Assembly (NCBI GenBank): GCA_028289445.1
Contig: JANQPO010000014.1
Location: 302,912 to 366,911, forward strand
Direction: 5' to 3'
Origin: Tepidamorphaceae bacterium
GTDB lineage: Bacteria; Pseudomonadota; Alphaproteobacteria; Rhizobiales; JAKSCL01
DNA: 64,000 nt
The notes beneath the pieces were generated by a model. The model was not told the origin of the DNA, made no database searches, and saw only the letters and a list, made by a program, of their open reading frames with translations. Positions within the stretch are counted from its first letter, which is position 1. Each line of letters opens with the position of its first letter. The translations under genes were made by a program, and so were the position numbers. Positions 1 through 6,973 of the stretch are shown here, one piece after another.

Positions 1-281
1 GTTCTATTCGAAACCGAGCCCTTGGCTGGTTTGCAATCCGCTATGTCAGCCGAGACCGTACAGTTTGCTTTATATTTGTCGGCAGGGCATGAGTTGGTTT
101 CAGTCGATTCGCAGTTGGCGCACTTCAATTTACTGCAGTGTTCGCAACATCCTACAAATCGTTGAGCTTTTTGTCTGGACTGCAAATCTTGCGCCGTCGA
201 ATAATTAGGCAACGAAACCGCAGCGATCGAAATCAGCGCTGCAGGCAACAGCCAACCTGCAGCTTTGTGGAACACCGGCAC
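1..281 (-). CDS. Exported Cys-rich protein of unknown function, 3' end beyond the window
   Basis: An open frame without stops runs leftward from a GTG at 281 to the window edge (93 codons seen). An AGGAAGGG ribosome binding site lies at 291-298, about nine bases before the GTG; a second in-frame GTG is at 275. The N-terminus has a basic residue, a hydrophobic stretch (roughly residues 9-24) and a plausible signal peptidase site near STAQD (residues 28-32). The mature part holds eight cysteines, including CCEHC and CANC arrangements, which suggests disulfides or metal binding outside the cytoplasm. I recognise no family. It points the same way as the exported-protein genes at 784-5934 and could be a distal member of that group, although 500 bases separate them. 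The missing C-terminus limits any functional call. Confidence 0.6.
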   Translation of the reverse strand, partial: MPVFHKAAGWLLPAALISIAAVSLPNYSTAQDLQSRQKAQRFVGCCEHCSKLKCANCESTETNSCPADKYKANCTVSADIADCKPAKGSVSNR

Positions 282-783: not shown

Positions 784-1821
784 TTAACGCATATCTAGTT
801 CAACGACCGGGAAGTCACCGATTGCGGCCGTGAATTCGGTTTCTACAACTTTGCCGCCTGATGTCGCGACGACCCTGTAGCGCGACGGTGGCTGAAGGAT
901 CCAGATATTGGCCATGTCCTCCGGTGTGCGGCGGCGCGAAGAATATGTCCGATTGCGCGCGCTTGGTCGGTCAAGCGCGGTCGACTTGAGCCCGATCGTC
1001 CAGTCCCCGTCTGCGGGAACGAGGATCTTGTAACGAACCGGCACATCCTCAAGACGGAAATTCAACTGTCCGTTGCCTGGAAGCTCTACGACACTTGAGA
1101 GCTCGCCATCCGCCACCTCCGCATAGAGGTGAAAGCGGCCCGCGCTCAGGTCAAATCTCGTCGTCTGTGTGCGCGCTCCCGAATGCTGATCGAGACCCTT
1201 GATGAAGCCTGTGCCCATATCTTGAGAGACAAACCACGTGAGGGGAACGTCCGGCGGGATGTTGTCGGTTCGATCGGCGTAGACAATCGCAGCGTCGATT
1301 GTCGTCGTCGCCTCGACCTGACCCGTCGATAGAGGCGCCTTGTCGGCAATCGCAATGTCGAGTGGCGGCACTTCGGCAATCATGGACGCTTCGCACCTAT
1401 GCATCCAAGCGCATTCGAAGGTGCCGTGTTCCCGGATGCAGAGGCGGGGTGGCGTCGAGCCAACCACGGAGAATGAAACGGCTGCCGGCTCTCCGGTGTG
1501 CAGCAGTTGATCCGCGTCGCTCGTATTCAGTTGCTCGCATTCGTTATCGGACATGTGTCCGTCACACAGCAGCGCCCGCGCCGAGTAATACCCCGTGCGG
1601 CCCACGAGCCGGCGAACCAGGACCAGTCCGTCCTGTCGGAAGATCGTGTAGTCGGACCGGCAGGTCTCGGTTATCGCGGCCTCACTTGGATTACGCTCCC
1701 GCATGAAGGCCCAAATCTCATCGGCGGGCGCCGGCTGCATGGCGCCGGTTGTGACCAGCCACATGAACGCGCCAATCAGAAATTTGCCTCTCAAATCGAA
1801 ACGACCTACTTGGCAGCGCAA
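784..1821 (-). CDS. Exported protein of unknown function (345 aa)
   Basis: The predicted protein begins with a basic segment followed by a hydrophobic stretch (about residues 12-30) ending near PAPADE, consistent with Sec export. The mature part is mostly polar and beta-rich, with cysteine pairs in the first half (about residues 54-145) and a C-terminal half that looks like beta-sandwich repeats. I recognise no catalytic motif or named family. Its start overlaps the end of the preceding 386-residue gene by 16 bases, so the two are probably translated from one transcript. It is the last tightly linked member of a leftward run of exported proteins that begins opposite a LuxR-type regulator. Function unknown. 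Confidence 0.7.
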   Translation of the reverse strand: MRCQVGRFDLRGKFLIGAFMWLVTTGAMQPAPADEIWAFMRERNPSEAAITETCRSDYTIFRQDGLVLVRRLVGRTGYYSARALLCDGHMSDNECEQLNTSDADQLLHTGEPAAVSFSVVGSTPPRLCIREHGTFECAWMHRCEASMIAEVPPLDIAIADKAPLSTGQVEATTTIDAAIVYADRTDNIPPDVPLTWFVSQDMGTGFIKGLDQHSGARTQTTRFDLSAGRFHLYAEVADGELSSVVELPGNGQLNFRLEDVPVRYKILVPADGDWTIGLKSTALDRPSARNRTYSSRRRTPEDMANIWILQPPSRYRVVATSGGKVVETEFTAAIGDFPVVELDMR

Positions 1822-2966
1822 TCGAAGACCAAGCGCGCGTTCGAACTATCGGGGTTATAGCCCGTGATCTCACAAGCGTCGTTTCTGATCGGTGGCGGTC
1901 CCTGCAGGATCATGCGGCCATCGCTGACCGCCTCGCCGCTGACGTCGTATGAGATGGCGCCACAGCTTGCCGAAAACAGATGCGACACACCGATAAAGAC
2001 GCCGTTCGAAACGCTACCGTGGACCAACGTGCTGCCTGCGTGATTGCCGGATGCGCCACGAATGCCGAGCTTCTTCAAGGACGTTCTCGGTTCGAGATAG
2101 GCGATTTCCCAAACGTCCTCGTCGATGCGAAGTGACATGAGCGATCCGTTGTGGGTGCACTGGTGATCGCCCATGAGAGAAAGATGGGCCGGAAGATCGT
2201 CATGCGCCGGCTCCGGATCGCTGGCTGGCTGCGTCAGGCTTGCCTCCGCCGGGACGCGATCGACCTTTTCCACATGCAGCCAGAAGGACTGGAACGCGCG
2301 CGATCCCGAACCGTATTGGCCATTGTGCCTGGACTTGGCAGCGTCAAAGACAATGAAGTGGGTCTCGGCCGGGTCGGGCGTGGGGCGAAAATAGGCCCGC
2401 ACATTCGAGCCGACGACATCGACCCGCTCAAACTCTCCCGTTTGCTCCGACAGGGAACAGAACTCATCCGGCGGCACGCACGCGGCCTGCTTGAGATAGT
2501 AGCCGCCAATGTAGTTTCCGGTGCCGTCCTTCCAAACATCGAAGACCGCGACGATGTCACCTCTTCCGCTATCTCCCCGGCGCCAGGCGCCGTACTGACT
2601 TACCACGTCGAACTCGGGCGCGGGTGCTGGGGGCTGTTCCGGCTCTGCCGCCGAATCCGTTGGAGCACCGGCGCACTGATCCAGTGTTACCTTTCGGTCC
2701 TGCGCGATCTGGCTGCGGACACTGGGCCCGTATCCCATGCAAGCCTGATAGATGGCCGAGGCGTTCAACTGGAACGTCGTATCGCCGGGATATGTGCACC
2801 CAAATTGCATAGCCTTGACCGCATCCTGAATGGCCTGAGTCGTGAAGGCGCGGCAGTCCTGCTCGTGGGCTGGCGACCCTTCGTAGTTGCCGTCGAAAGA
2901 GATGGCGGGACGCGGAAGCAGTGCCAACGCCGCGATCAGCCACCCGCCTGCAATGCGGGCACTCAT
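1806..2966 (-). CDS. Exported protein of unknown function (386 aa)
   Basis: The N-terminus (MSARIAGGWLIAALALL) is a typical signal peptide. The first 100 mature residues are helical and carry several cysteines. A Pro/Ala/Glu-rich linker (about residues 105-120) leads to a beta-rich region of about 270 residues with further cysteines. No enzymatic motif was recognised. The ATG overlaps the stop of the upstream 829-residue gene in an ATGA arrangement (2963-2966), a strong sign of translational coupling, and its own 3' end overlaps the next gene by 16 bases. The three proteins are therefore likely made together and exported together. They could form an envelope or extracellular complex, but that is inference. 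Confidence 0.7.
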   Translation of the reverse strand: MSARIAGGWLIAALALLPRPAISFDGNYEGSPAHEQDCRAFTTQAIQDAVKAMQFGCTYPGDTTFQLNASAIYQACMGYGPSVRSQIAQDRKVTLDQCAGAPTDSAAEPEQPPAPAPEFDVVSQYGAWRRGDSGRGDIVAVFDVWKDGTGNYIGGYYLKQAACVPPDEFCSLSEQTGEFERVDVVGSNVRAYFRPTPDPAETHFIVFDAAKSRHNGQYGSGSRAFQSFWLHVEKVDRVPAEASLTQPASDPEPAHDDLPAHLSLMGDHQCTHNGSLMSLRIDEDVWEIAYLEPRTSLKKLGIRGASGNHAGSTLVHGSVSNGVFIGVSHLFSASCGAISYDVSGEAVSDGRMILQGPPPIRNDACEITGYNPDSSNARLVFDCAAK

Positions 2967-5452
2967 CGGCAGACCTCCTTGCCGTTATAGGCATAGATAT
3001 TGGCAATATCGCGCGAGAGGTTGGCGAAGCTGCCGCTGGCGCTCGGCATTTTCCACGCCACGAGGCACGTCTTGTAGTGGGTCAGCCAGTCGTCATGATA
3101 GAGGCTCTCCGGCCAGTCGCAGGCGCGCCGCGTGATCGTGTTGTGATCGCTTAGCCGGCCATTGGCGTCCGATTTGCAGCGGAACACGCCATCGTCTCCC
3201 GCGTTGGCCTCAAGTTGCTCCAGCGAGGTTCCGGCCGGAACCTCGGGAAGGCCGATGGTCCGATAGCCCGATGACAGCGTCGACACGGCTCCTGTCGTCA
3301 AGGCCCCGCCTGCGACCGCTGCTTGTTCTGAACCGCCGCTTTGATCGCTGCCCGCCTGATCGCCTCTACTTTGCCCGTCGTCTTGCGGCGTGACCACGTT
3401 GGCAAACTCACGCTGTTCGATCTGGGCGCACAGCTCGTAGGTCTCGTTGTCGATGGCATTTTGCACATCGATCTGGGCGTTGACCTTGGCGTTGACCTCA
3501 GCGGCAGGCGCACCTTGCTTCATCATGGACTGGGTAGTCGTGTCCAACTTCGCCAGCACGAATTCGCAGTATTCCTGATTGTTGCTGTCGCCGGCGCTGG
3601 CCGTGCCGGGCTGCGGCGCTGGAGCCGGCGTGCCGCTGCCGGCTGGTTGGGGGTCGTCAACCTGCGCAATCGCGCCCAGCGCAACAAGCTGATCATGAAC
3701 GGCCTTGCACCGGTCGAACCGGCCGTTCAAAGTCGCCTCGCCCATTTCCACGGCCAGCGTCGCCATCGCGCCGGGATTACTGGCCGACGCCGCGGCGACC
3801 TTACCGTTCTGCAACCCGTCGCCATAAGCCGCAGCGACAGCACCGCAATAGGCCTTCTCCTGGTCCTCTGTGAGTCCAGCGGCTGGCGTCGGATCGGGCG
3901 CTGGTCCGGTATCGGCCGGATCGCTTTCCGTGGCCTTGTTGGCCATCTGCCAGTCATAGTTTTGCTGGTCGATGAAACGGTATGAGGCGATCCAGGGTCC
4001 ATAGGCCAGCGTGGTGACACCGTTGCGCGTCGTCGCTTCATACGATTCCGCTGCCGCCAGCTTCTCCAAGAAAACCTGACCGCCCGATGTGTCGATCACA
4101 CCGGCATGCCGACCGGCGAAACAGATGTCGGAATCGAAGCTGTAAATGTCGGAGCCCCAGACCTGGGCGGTGTATCTGCCGCCAATTCCATTGACCATGG
4201 CGTCGGACGAACACTGGCAAGTGACATGGCCGCCGCGCCACAGTGCATCGAAGGTCTCAGGCGTGCAGGCGGCCATTTCGGTAGCCGGCCGTGGGCTTGG
4301 TGGCGGTGGTGCCTCTTCACCGCTGGCAGCAAGGCAGGCCTCCAGCTCACTTTCGCGCTGACGGCGCCGCGCGTCGCGCTCCTCAGGCGAGAACCGCGAA
4401 CACTCCGAATTGATTTCTTCCTGGCTGCGCGACCAAAGGCCGTCGGATCCTTCGCACCGATTGCCGAAGTATTGGAAGCTCATCAGCTTCGTTTCTTGGA
4501 CATAGGCCCTGCAATCCTTGCGCGCGTCCGTCTCGGCCTTCGCCAGTTCGACGTTGCAGGCATCAACAGCATCCTTGCGGCGGCGGTTGAGATCGTCCCG
4601 ATCGTTGGGGCTGAGCGTTTCACATTCGCGATCGAAATAAGCGGCGTCTTCGCTCCACCACTCTCCGACCGGATCGCAGGCACCGGATTCAAGATGGGGG
4701 ATGATCTGCCGGGACAAGTAGAGCCCCTCTTGACGATAGGAGCGGCACAGGTGGGCGCTGTTCGGGTCGGGAAGCTCGCCGAGCCGTGTGATCGAGACTT
4801 CGGCCGCGAAGCGGATTCTCCGCTCGGTTTGCAGCTTCGTGAAGATTCGGAAATAGCGCGGCACACCCACCTGATCGTTACCTGTCAGTAGGTCCTTCTT
4901 CAAAGAGACGACGCGTTCCGCTGTGCCGTAATCGTAGTAAGGACGGGCCGCATCTCCCTTGCTCTCCATCCGCATGACAAGTTTGAACGTCGCGTCGGCA
5001 CCAGAATCCAGAAAAACGAAATCGGGAATGTTCACTCGCTGCACGCCCCGAAGCGGACTCGCCCACCTTGGAATGCCACGCGAGCGCGCCTCGGCGTCAG
5101 CCCCGAAATAGAGCGGCGGTGCGAGCATCGGACATTCCCATCTGTAACCGGTTTCGAATGCCTTGGGCGTTTCCGATCCCGTAAACCACAATGAGGATGT
5201 CGGCAGATGCGATCGCCCGGCGGTCGCCACCTCCGCCGTCAGGTATCCGAAGACTAAGCTGTCCTCGTCGTGTTTCGGATAGACGAAACAGGCCTGAATG
5301 CCGGGTCCAGTGAAATGCTGCCCGCTGGCCCAGCCATAAGTCACGTGAATCTCGTATTCGACGGCGAAGGCCGAACTCGAAGGTATCGCCAGCATCGCAC
5401 AAAGCGCGGCAACAAAAGACGCGAAAACGTGGAGTGGTCGCACCGAGAGCAT
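2963..5452 (-). CDS. Large exported protein with an LCCL domain (829 aa)
   Basis: A signal peptide (hydrophobic about residues 8-28, ending SSSAFA) precedes a region of about 240 residues with no recognised fold. A Cys-rich helical region follows with repeated charged segments (about 245-370), then a Pro-rich linker. Residues about 396-493 match the LCCL domain: CQC near the start, then VWGSDIYSFDSDIC, HAGVI, a GGQV strand, and a Tyr...NGV motif. The C-terminal 330 residues are helical and low in complexity, with cysteines and Gly/Ser/Gln-rich stretches. LCCL domains are known from extracellular eukaryotic proteins and some bacterial ones, where they are thought to bind lipids or glycans. The stop overlaps the next start (ATGA). 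The exact role is unknown. Confidence 0.75.
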   Translation of the reverse strand: MLSVRPLHVFASFVAALCAMLAIPSSSAFAVEYEIHVTYGWASGQHFTGPGIQACFVYPKHDEDSLVFGYLTAEVATAGRSHLPTSSLWFTGSETPKAFETGYRWECPMLAPPLYFGADAEARSRGIPRWASPLRGVQRVNIPDFVFLDSGADATFKLVMRMESKGDAARPYYDYGTAERVVSLKKDLLTGNDQVGVPRYFRIFTKLQTERRIRFAAEVSITRLGELPDPNSAHLCRSYRQEGLYLSRQIIPHLESGACDPVGEWWSEDAAYFDRECETLSPNDRDDLNRRRKDAVDACNVELAKAETDARKDCRAYVQETKLMSFQYFGNRCEGSDGLWSRSQEEINSECSRFSPEERDARRRQRESELEACLAASGEEAPPPPSPRPATEMAACTPETFDALWRGGHVTCQCSSDAMVNGIGGRYTAQVWGSDIYSFDSDICFAGRHAGVIDTSGGQVFLEKLAAAESYEATTRNGVTTLAYGPWIASYRFIDQQNYDWQMANKATESDPADTGPAPDPTPAAGLTEDQEKAYCGAVAAAYGDGLQNGKVAAASASNPGAMATLAVEMGEATLNGRFDRCKAVHDQLVALGAIAQVDDPQPAGSGTPAPAPQPGTASAGDSNNQEYCEFVLAKLDTTTQSMMKQGAPAAEVNAKVNAQIDVQNAIDNETYELCAQIEQREFANVVTPQDDGQSRGDQAGSDQSGGSEQAAVAGGALTTGAVSTLSSGYRTIGLPEVPAGTSLEQLEANAGDDGVFRCKSDANGRLSDHNTITRRACDWPESLYHDDWLTHYKTCLVAWKMPSASGSFANLSRDIANIYAYNGKEVCR

Positions 5453-5478
5453 GGCGAAACCTCCTTGATTTCAGAAGA

Positions 5479-5934
5479 TTAGCCGGCTGAAAGATACGGC
5501 TTCGTGTAACAGTCGAAGACGGTCTGTCTGAACAGCAACACAAATGACAGCGCCGACTCCGAATCGGAGAACGCCTTGGCGTATTCCGGTTTCTTGCCCC
5601 ATGCCGTGGCAACGCCGAGCTTCCAACCGACTGCGGTCAGGCTGCGCAAAACGCCGTTCATGTTGTTGAGGTAGGAACCGGCATCCGTGCCATTCAAAGC
5701 GCCGGCCGCAGCGTTCATCGCGTCGGCGGCGCCGGTGAGATTTTGCGTTGCCTGAGGATCCGTCTCATCCTCGATATATCTGCGGAGCTTTCGTTCCTGC
5801 GCGCCGATTTCATAGGCCAGACTTTCCGCCTGGTTGGCCAACCCCTGCGGACTGCACTGGCTGGCGAACGCCGGCGGTGCAGCAAGAGCCACTAACGTGG
5901 CCAGACAGATGATGAAGTGACGGCTGGATGTCAT
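5479..5934 (-). CDS. Small exported helical protein of unknown function (151 aa)
   Basis: The protein has a clear signal peptide (hydrophobic residues about 8-24, cleavage near AFASQ). The mature part is about 125 residues, mostly helical, with one cysteine near the new N-terminus and one near the C-terminus that could pair. No family was recognised. It sits 26 bases before the 829-residue LCCL-domain gene on the same strand. Its ATG overlaps the stop of a possible small upstream frame (ATGA at 5931-5934). It is a good candidate for the first or second gene of the leftward exported-protein operon. Confidence 0.7.
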   Translation of the reverse strand: MTSSRHFIICLATLVALAAPPAFASQCSPQGLANQAESLAYEIGAQERKLRRYIEDETDPQATQNLTGAADAMNAAAGALNGTDAGSYLNNMNGVLRSLTAVGWKLGVATAWGKKPEYAKAFSDSESALSFVLLFRQTVFDCYTKPYLSAG

Positions 5935-6131
5935 GGCGCTTGTTCCATTCCGTTAGACGCTTCGATCCATGTCGGCAGGTGCGCGTGTCGTGAGGCCTCG
6001 GCCAGCTTGGCACCCGGCTTCGGACATTCCGCCGTGATGCGCGCCGCGACCGCCTTGCAGTGTCCAGTTGCGCGCCGCAGCTTGGTGTTTGCCGCTGAGA
6101 TTTCAGTCAAATCGTACCCCGCTTTCGGCAC
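5931..6131 (-). CDS. Possible small leader gene (66 aa), uncertain
   Basis: A GTG-started frame of 66 codons ends in an ATGA overlap with the 151-residue exported protein, the same coupling seen between later genes of this run. The predicted product is helical, with two cysteines and no signal peptide. There is no strong Shine-Dalgarno sequence before the GTG. It could be a real coupled peptide or a chance frame in the 5' leader. The only positive evidence is the overlap and the acceptable codon use. Confidence 0.35.
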   Translation of the reverse strand: MPKAGYDLTEISAANTKLRRATGHCKAVAARITAECPKPGAKLAEASRHAHLPTWIEASNGMEQAP

Positions 6132-6217
6132 AATCCGTCAAGAAATTGCCTTTGAGGGTCAATCTGTTAAAAGTGATATATCGTCTTTGAGATAGGCTTC
6201 TGGCGCGGCAAATTTGG

Positions 6218-6973
6218 ATGGATCGAAGTCTTCTTAGTGCCTCCCGTGCCATTGAGCGAAGGACATCAATAGACGAGGTGTTCGATCTCTTCGTTTCGGC
6301 GATCGAGCCTTACGGATTGACATATGTTATCTATGTCACCGTGGCAGACTCCCCCGATCGGGACCTTCATTTGCTTTCCAATTTCCCGCAGGACTGGGCA
6401 GACAAAGTTCGCGGAGATGACACTGCTTTCGATCCGTTTTTGGATTATTGTTGCTCCACCTATGACATCACGCTCACCGGCGTGGAGTTTCTGGAGGACT
6501 ATCCCTATCTCGATGACAAGTCGGTCGCGTTCATCAAAGCGGCTGGTGAGATGGGCTTTCGCTCGGGTCTCGGAATCCCGATGCGTCTACAGGGCTCAAC
6601 GCGCTTCGGCGGGTTCAATCTGGGAGCCTCTCAAAAACGCGCGGATTTCGAGAGGATTATCCTGCCAAAGAGCGAAATGTTTCGCGCTTTTTGTCTCTTC
6701 GCGCACCGTCGCATCGAGGAGCTTCGGGACGGCACGGCGTCGTCCATGACCCAGAGAAATCTCAGCCCGCGCGAGAAGCAATGCATAACGCTGATCGCCG
6801 CGGGGCGGCGGATCCCGCAGATCGCCGACGCCCTTAGCGTCAGCATCCCCGCCGTGCGACTTTACCTGCGCAACGCGCGCGGCAAGCTCGGTGCCTCGAC
6901 CAAGGAACAGGCCGTAGCGTTCGCCATGCAAAAAGGACTGCTCGACGACGAAGGCCTCATACAGGCGAACTGA
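6218..6973 (+). CDS. LuxR-family transcriptional regulator, apparently a solo
   Basis: The 251-residue protein has an N-terminal autoinducer-binding-type domain (about 10-165) and a C-terminal LuxR helix-turn-helix (about 181-242: LSPREKQ, IAAG, IADALSVS, KLGA, QAVAFA). In the ligand domain the conserved Trp (W60) and Asp-Pro pair (D72-P73) are kept. The Tyr four residues after the Trp is Val (V64), and the Trp normally found shortly after the DP motif is absent. It may therefore bind a non-canonical signal or none. No luxI-type synthase lies in the window. It is divergent from the exported-protein run, so it may control that operon. About 85 bases separate it from the possible leader frame at 5931-6131. 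No clear lux box was found there. Confidence 0.85.
   Translation: MDRSLLSASRAIERRTSIDEVFDLFVSAIEPYGLTYVIYVTVADSPDRDLHLLSNFPQDWADKVRGDDTAFDPFLDYCCSTYDITLTGVEFLEDYPYLDDKSVAFIKAAGEMGFRSGLGIPMRLQGSTRFGGFNLGASQKRADFERIILPKSEMFRAFCLFAHRRIEELRDGTASSMTQRNLSPREKQCITLIAAGRRIPQIADALSVSIPAVRLYLRNARGKLGASTKEQAVAFAMQKGLLDDEGLIQAN

Follow-up and report, generated by a model that had tools for sequence, protein, structure and literature searches.

Near the left edge of the 64,000-nucleotide stretch of DNA analysed here (the window), a run of leftward genes for apparently exported proteins faces a LuxR-type regulator. Does this run form one system, and is it controlled by the regulator opposite?

A leftward run of four genes with signal-like starts

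The locus consists of the following features.

784-1821, minus strand: p345 (345 aa), an exported-type orphan starting at TTG1821 or TTG1794; ORF, coding frame and signal-like start
1806-2966, minus strand: p386 (386 aa), with a signal-like start, a four-Cys module, a middle domain and a C-terminal HNGS domain
2963-5452, minus strand: p829 (829 aa), a multidomain protein with a signal-like start, an LCCL domain and four-Cys modules
5479-5934, minus strand: p151 (151 aa), a small exported-type orphan; ORF and signal peptide
5935-6217, no strand: divergent intergenic region of 283 nt, presumed regulatory from its position only
6218-6973, plus strand: LuxR-type regulator of the TG/GGFNLG subfamily, with Autoind_bind and GerE domains and an alignment to TraR

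Each of the four minus-strand ORFs matches the codon usage of the window best in its own frame. The first-pass annotation had described four or five leftward genes with signal peptides. This stands for p151, p829, p386 and p345, all of which have signal-peptide-like N-termini by a crude rule. The same rule is met by 9 of the 42 other window genes, and at this background rate four consecutive signal-like starts are improbable by chance. The possible fifth gene, an ORF of 66 aa, was dropped because it has no signal peptide, no Shine-Dalgarno sequence and a weak coding score.

The genes had also been said to overlap by 4-16 bases at most junctions, which is true in part. p829 and p386 share a 4-nt ATGA overlap. 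The junction of p386 and p345 depends on the start of p345, being a 16-nt overlap with TTG1821 and an 11-nt gap with TTG1794, and both starts are equally plausible. p151 and p829 are separated by a 26-nt gap. Shine-Dalgarno sequences are strong in p829 and p386 (AAGGAGGT). The description of the products as Cys-rich was borne out: cysteine makes up 2.0-2.8% of the cassette proteins, compared with 0-1.9% in five other window genes. The genes p151-p829-p386-p345 are probably read as one transcript.

Only p829 and p386 recur together

The source genome assembly (3.95 Mb) is near-complete (99.9%), and its family is represented by 2 genomes in the set searched; to judge by named relatives, its order is Hyphomicrobiales. 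Co-occurrence was searched in an order-level sample of 297 Hyphomicrobiales genomes and by a pattern scan of the genomes of 84,980 species. In both together, the p829/p386 pair was found in one further genome only, a Tepidamorphaceae MAG of another family (G061). Its p386 (L037) is 75% identical to that of the window and has the same 4-nt ATGA overlap with p829; its p829 is 79% identical over the C-terminal 110 aa, where the contig is cut inside the gene, so that the upstream side is not covered. dN/dS between the two p386 genes is about 0.11. These comparisons support the view that p829 and p386 are coupled in a second lineage and subject there to purifying selection. The high identity together with the patchy presence of the pair suggests horizontal transfer.

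The other genes do not follow the pair. The first-pass annotation had set independent occurrence in other genomes as a test of a common system, and such occurrence was found: p345 is not next to p386 in G061, and elsewhere LuxR homologues are found in the absence of p829. ORFs about 0.4 kb after the G061 p386 would, from their translations, encode a phosphonate-type ABC transporter. No LuxR homologue was found in the G061 genome at E<=1e-10. p345 has no credible relative and p151 no relative in the 297-genome order sample, and neither has any on plasmids, where matches were limited to the LCCL or HNGS domain. Beyond its own genome, p345 had a single order-level match (G210, E 3e-4), which falls within a large and unrelated oxidoreductase-like ORF and was rejected as chance. 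For the N-terminal domain of p829, the samples searched gave no credible relatives; class-level matches to it were likewise discarded as chance, the matched frames appearing non-coding. Viral contigs searched with a p386 profile gave no relative. Only p829/p386 recur together, p345 and p151 have no credible relatives in these searches, and no close LuxR homologue was found in G061. The five genes thus do not make up the single conserved system that the first-pass annotation had supposed.

To the left of the cassette (L032:5577-8851) are an IS1-like transposase, a gene with HTH and IrrE-type (Peptidase_M78) parts and a tRNA-Ser(TGA). GC is low there, and the region is likely an insertion hotspot. 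The chief rival explanation starts here. The exported genes might form a cargo island in which p829/p386 are the functional core and which happens to lie beside an unrelated LuxR gene that acts elsewhere. The tRNA-Ser, the low GC and the transposase fit such an island, as do the recurrence of the pair alone and the lack of a close LuxR homologue in G061. Against it, divergent exported neighbours recur in several lineages beside LuxR genes of the subfamily, as described below, and we consider it doubtful.

An antagonism or toxin-immunity type of cassette on an island is very improbable. It would account for the exported, multidomain and orphan character of the proteins and for their patchy distribution, but there were no matches to toxin, defence or phage families, all four genes have signal peptides, and p345 is not retained with the pair in G061.

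Domains of p829 and p386

The proteins had been assigned to no recognised family, although an LCCL domain had been noticed in one of them. This domain is genuine and lies in p829, where PF03815 scores 50.1 bits against a curated cut-off of 22.6 over profile positions 33-94 of 96, and where the LCCL domain of cochlin (PDB 1jbi) is also matched. p386 ends in a widespread, unnamed domain, here called HNGS. The lack of a recognised family did not hold for the LCCL domain.

3986-4183, minus strand: LCCL domain (p829 residues 424-489; PF03815 E 3.2e-13; PDB 1jbi E 1.9e-6)
4556-4747, minus strand: four-Cys module copy 1 (p829 residues 236-299; profile match)
4334-4513, minus strand: four-Cys module copy 2 (p829 residues 314-373; profile match)
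3056-3178, minus strand: four-Cys module copy 3, weak and partial (p829 residues 759-799; 5.5 bits)
2673-2855, minus strand: four-Cys module of p386 (residues 38-98; 26 bits, shuffle maximum 6.4)
1812-2165, minus strand: HNGS domain, unnamed (p386 residues 268-385; alignment)

p829 and p386 have in common a module of about 60 aa with four invariant cysteines. It was detected with a profile of that length built from proteins of the order that have a PAN_4 domain. This profile scores 32 bits for the whole of p829 and 26 for p386, whereas shuffles that preserve composition reach at most 10.4 and 6.4. G061 p386 and the C-terminal piece of G061 p829 likewise match the profile, and the third copy, weak in the window, scores 14.7 bits in the G061 homologue. 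No Pfam model was found for this repeat. In exported proteins of the order (L012-L016), up to eight copies per protein follow a PAN_4 domain.

The HNGS domain (about 115 aa) has the pattern HNGSxM...PR...G...LF.G...C...Y.V.G...P...C...L.F and matches in at least 34 of the 297 Hyphomicrobiales genomes. Many exported proteins of the order contain it, either alone or with SH3, SPOR or caspase-like domains, the last being a putative assignment read from the sequences. Neither a Pfam model nor a solved relative was found for it. AlphaFold models of p829 and p386 had mean pLDDT values of 37 and 35 and were not taken into a fold search.

In the same order, some LCCL proteins (L003, L004, L006) carry LCCL three or four times in tandem and end in an OmpA domain; our literature search found no paper on this LCCL-OmpA architecture. 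These proteins bear on a second rival explanation, namely that the run is a periplasmic or outer-membrane module of envelope maintenance (a peptidoglycan- or LPS-associated scaffold) that is not secreted or signal-dependent, with the LuxR protein as a minor modulator. The OmpA peptidoglycan-binding domain of other LCCL proteins and the occurrence of HNGS domains with SH3 and SPOR domains are in its favour. However, the Pfam search of p829 and p386 gave no OmpA, SPOR, lipobox or membrane anchor, and the patchy distribution is unlike that of housekeeping genes. We regard this explanation as unlikely.

p829 resembles cochlin, CRISPLD2, Limulus factor C, Plasmodium CCp/LAP and the bacterial LCCL-OmpA proteins in that LCCL is part of an exported multidomain protein. 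It differs from them in having a single LCCL domain among four-Cys modules and no OmpA, VWA or protease domain, and in an N-terminal domain for which no relatives were found. The Hyphomicrobiales LCCL-OmpA proteins (e.g., L006), in contrast, combine tandem LCCL domains with a C-terminal OmpA domain.

The LuxR-type regulator

To our knowledge, neither the signal nor the target is known for most LuxR solos. The ORF at 6218-6973 encodes, as had been noted, a LuxR-type regulator opposite the leftward genes: PF03472 (Autoind_bind) scores 44 bits (cut-off 23) and PF00196 (GerE) 39 bits (cut-off 23.5). In the alignment to TraR, W57, D70, P71 and G113 of six pocket residues are retained, whereas Y61 is replaced by V and W85 by T. 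These two replacements suggest a LuxR protein that is not a canonical AHL receptor. A 2015 survey describes such changes as common among LuxR solos for which binding of standard acyl-homoserine lactones is not expected (PMC4338825). A search of the genome for luxI (PF00765, E<=1e-3) gave no match, nor did the control genomes, and the absence of luxI is only indicated. In the 283-nt intergenic region, no lux-box-like palindrome rose above chance; the lack of a detected operator favours a regulator that acts elsewhere, with the exported genes as an unrelated island.

Relatives of the regulator repeatedly face exported proteins

Loci of the closest LuxR homologues were picked by similarity before their neighbours were inspected, and annotated plasmid relatives were added. 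A uniform rule was applied to the neighbours: a divergently oriented ORF of 100 aa or more, with a start within 450 nt, a positive coding score and a signal-like N-terminus. By this rule, an exported or membrane-anchored protein is divergently encoded at 10 of 15 subfamily loci and at 2 of 17 more distant LuxR loci. Fisher's test on a nearly identical earlier count gave p 0.003, with the limitation that the loci are not independent. The rule is crude; a membrane protein (L081) also satisfies it, and the Phaeobacter VWA gene escapes it. Neighbour type changes state five times on the tree. The subfamily as a clade was not rejected by an AU test (p 0.34), which is uninformative. Its members have, with exceptions, the motif DPF...C...TG...GG[FW]N[LIF]G.

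The divergent genes are of several kinds. In G255 and G287, which belong to another family, the LuxR gene faces genes for two small Cys-containing exported proteins, an exported protein of 456-525 aa and an HNGS-SH3 protein. An exported VWA protein is divergent from LuxR in G255 (a second copy), G253, Phaeobacter and Tritonibacter, and is followed by further exported proteins in three of the four. Exported proteins of 402 and 399 aa are found in Roseovarius, and exported proteins are also divergent at the G092 and G244 loci. There are exceptions: at a locus of the type on a 78-kb Phaeobacter plasmid, the neighbour is a Fic-type protein, and in G087 (L104) and G025 (L105) it is an HTH protein whose C-terminal part appears, on reading the sequence, to be alpha/beta-hydrolase-like.

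The closest LuxR relatives are those of Phaeobacter inhibens pP66_c and Tritonibacter (36-39% identity). They also face a tightly spaced run of exported proteins (VWA, 325 aa, 187 aa), but this cargo is not homologous to p829, p386 or p345, as profile comparison was negative. The VWA cassette itself is conserved among P. inhibens pP66_c (L106), Tritonibacter scottomollicae (L107) and L101: related exported proteins of 187-211 aa follow VWA in these, and one of 299-325 aa occurs in two. A likeness between the middle domain of p386 and the 456-525 aa protein of G255 and G287, suggested by eye, had no profile support.

This repeated placing makes local control more plausible than it would be from one genome. 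Among the groups shown in the 2015 survey, no exported-run context appears (PMC4338825), and our literature search found nothing on a divergent exported-run context of this LuxR group. The window regulator resembles the LuxR solos OryR, XccR and PsoR, which stand beside pip (PMC4338825), in its autoinducer-binding and GerE domains, in the lack of a detected luxI, in its pocket substitutions and in a target presumed to be adjacent. It differs from them in that the neighbours of its subfamily are runs of exported-protein genes that change with lineage, and in that the W85 position is T inside the TG motif.

A proposed switched cassette as the best explanation

A common function and a common control of the leftward genes are what we infer. 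Our preferred explanation, which we put at a little under an even chance, is that p151-p829-p386-p345 is an accessory cassette of exported disulfide-rich binding proteins, switched by the divergent LuxR-type solo. The LuxR protein would bind a small molecule, probably not a standard acyl-homoserine lactone given that two of six pocket residues are changed, and would act on the 283-nt intergenic region to turn on the run. The cassette proteins would be Sec-exported and oxidised. p829 and p386, the stable core, may work jointly beyond the inner membrane, in binding or scaffolding; a surface glycan, LPS or matrix would be a plausible target of LCCL and its companion modules. Animal LCCL proteins have been described as interaction partners of components of the bacterial cell wall (PMC10892792).

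This explanation is based on the four consecutive, signal-bearing and tightly spaced genes; on the retention of p829/p386 in another family, where the overlap is unchanged and selection is purifying; on the common four-Cys module, the LCCL domain and the LuxR pocket changes; and on the 10/15 versus 2/17 count of exported divergent neighbours, together with the HNGS protein in the runs of G255 and G287. Against it count the missing operator, the lack of a close LuxR homologue in G061, the lack of conservation of p345 and p151, the non-independence of the subfamily loci, the crude signal-peptide rule and the low confidence of the structure models.

In this best explanation, the regulator would be the more general part, and the cargo would be lineage-specific and exchanged between lineages. 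A broader version, in which the LuxR-solo subfamily is a portable switch across Alphaproteobacteria whose exported cargo (VWA, LCCL/HNGS Cys-rich, others) is swapped by lineage, is conceivable, with the balance leaning against it. What is new here is that a LuxR subfamily is recurrently placed divergent from exported cargo that is exchangeable. This hints at an undescribed means of switching on cell-surface proteins after a chemical cue. If the subfamily habitually faces exported proteins, each member would gain a nearby testable target, and the VWA cassette of P. inhibens, with a LuxR protein 39% identical to that of the window, would offer a culturable model. Such a subfamily would also tie bacterial LCCL proteins, and two domains that Pfam does not name, to a regulated surface programme.

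Small Cys-rich genes at the left edge

Two small genes for Cys-rich exported proteins converge to the left of the cassette. One lies at window positions 1-281 on the minus strand and runs off the left edge (L032:9897-10193), and the other is on the plus strand (L032:9502-9876). Neither has a Pfam match. Their products of 98 and 124 aa look like paralogues with the pattern GCC..C....C..C...C....YKANC......C.
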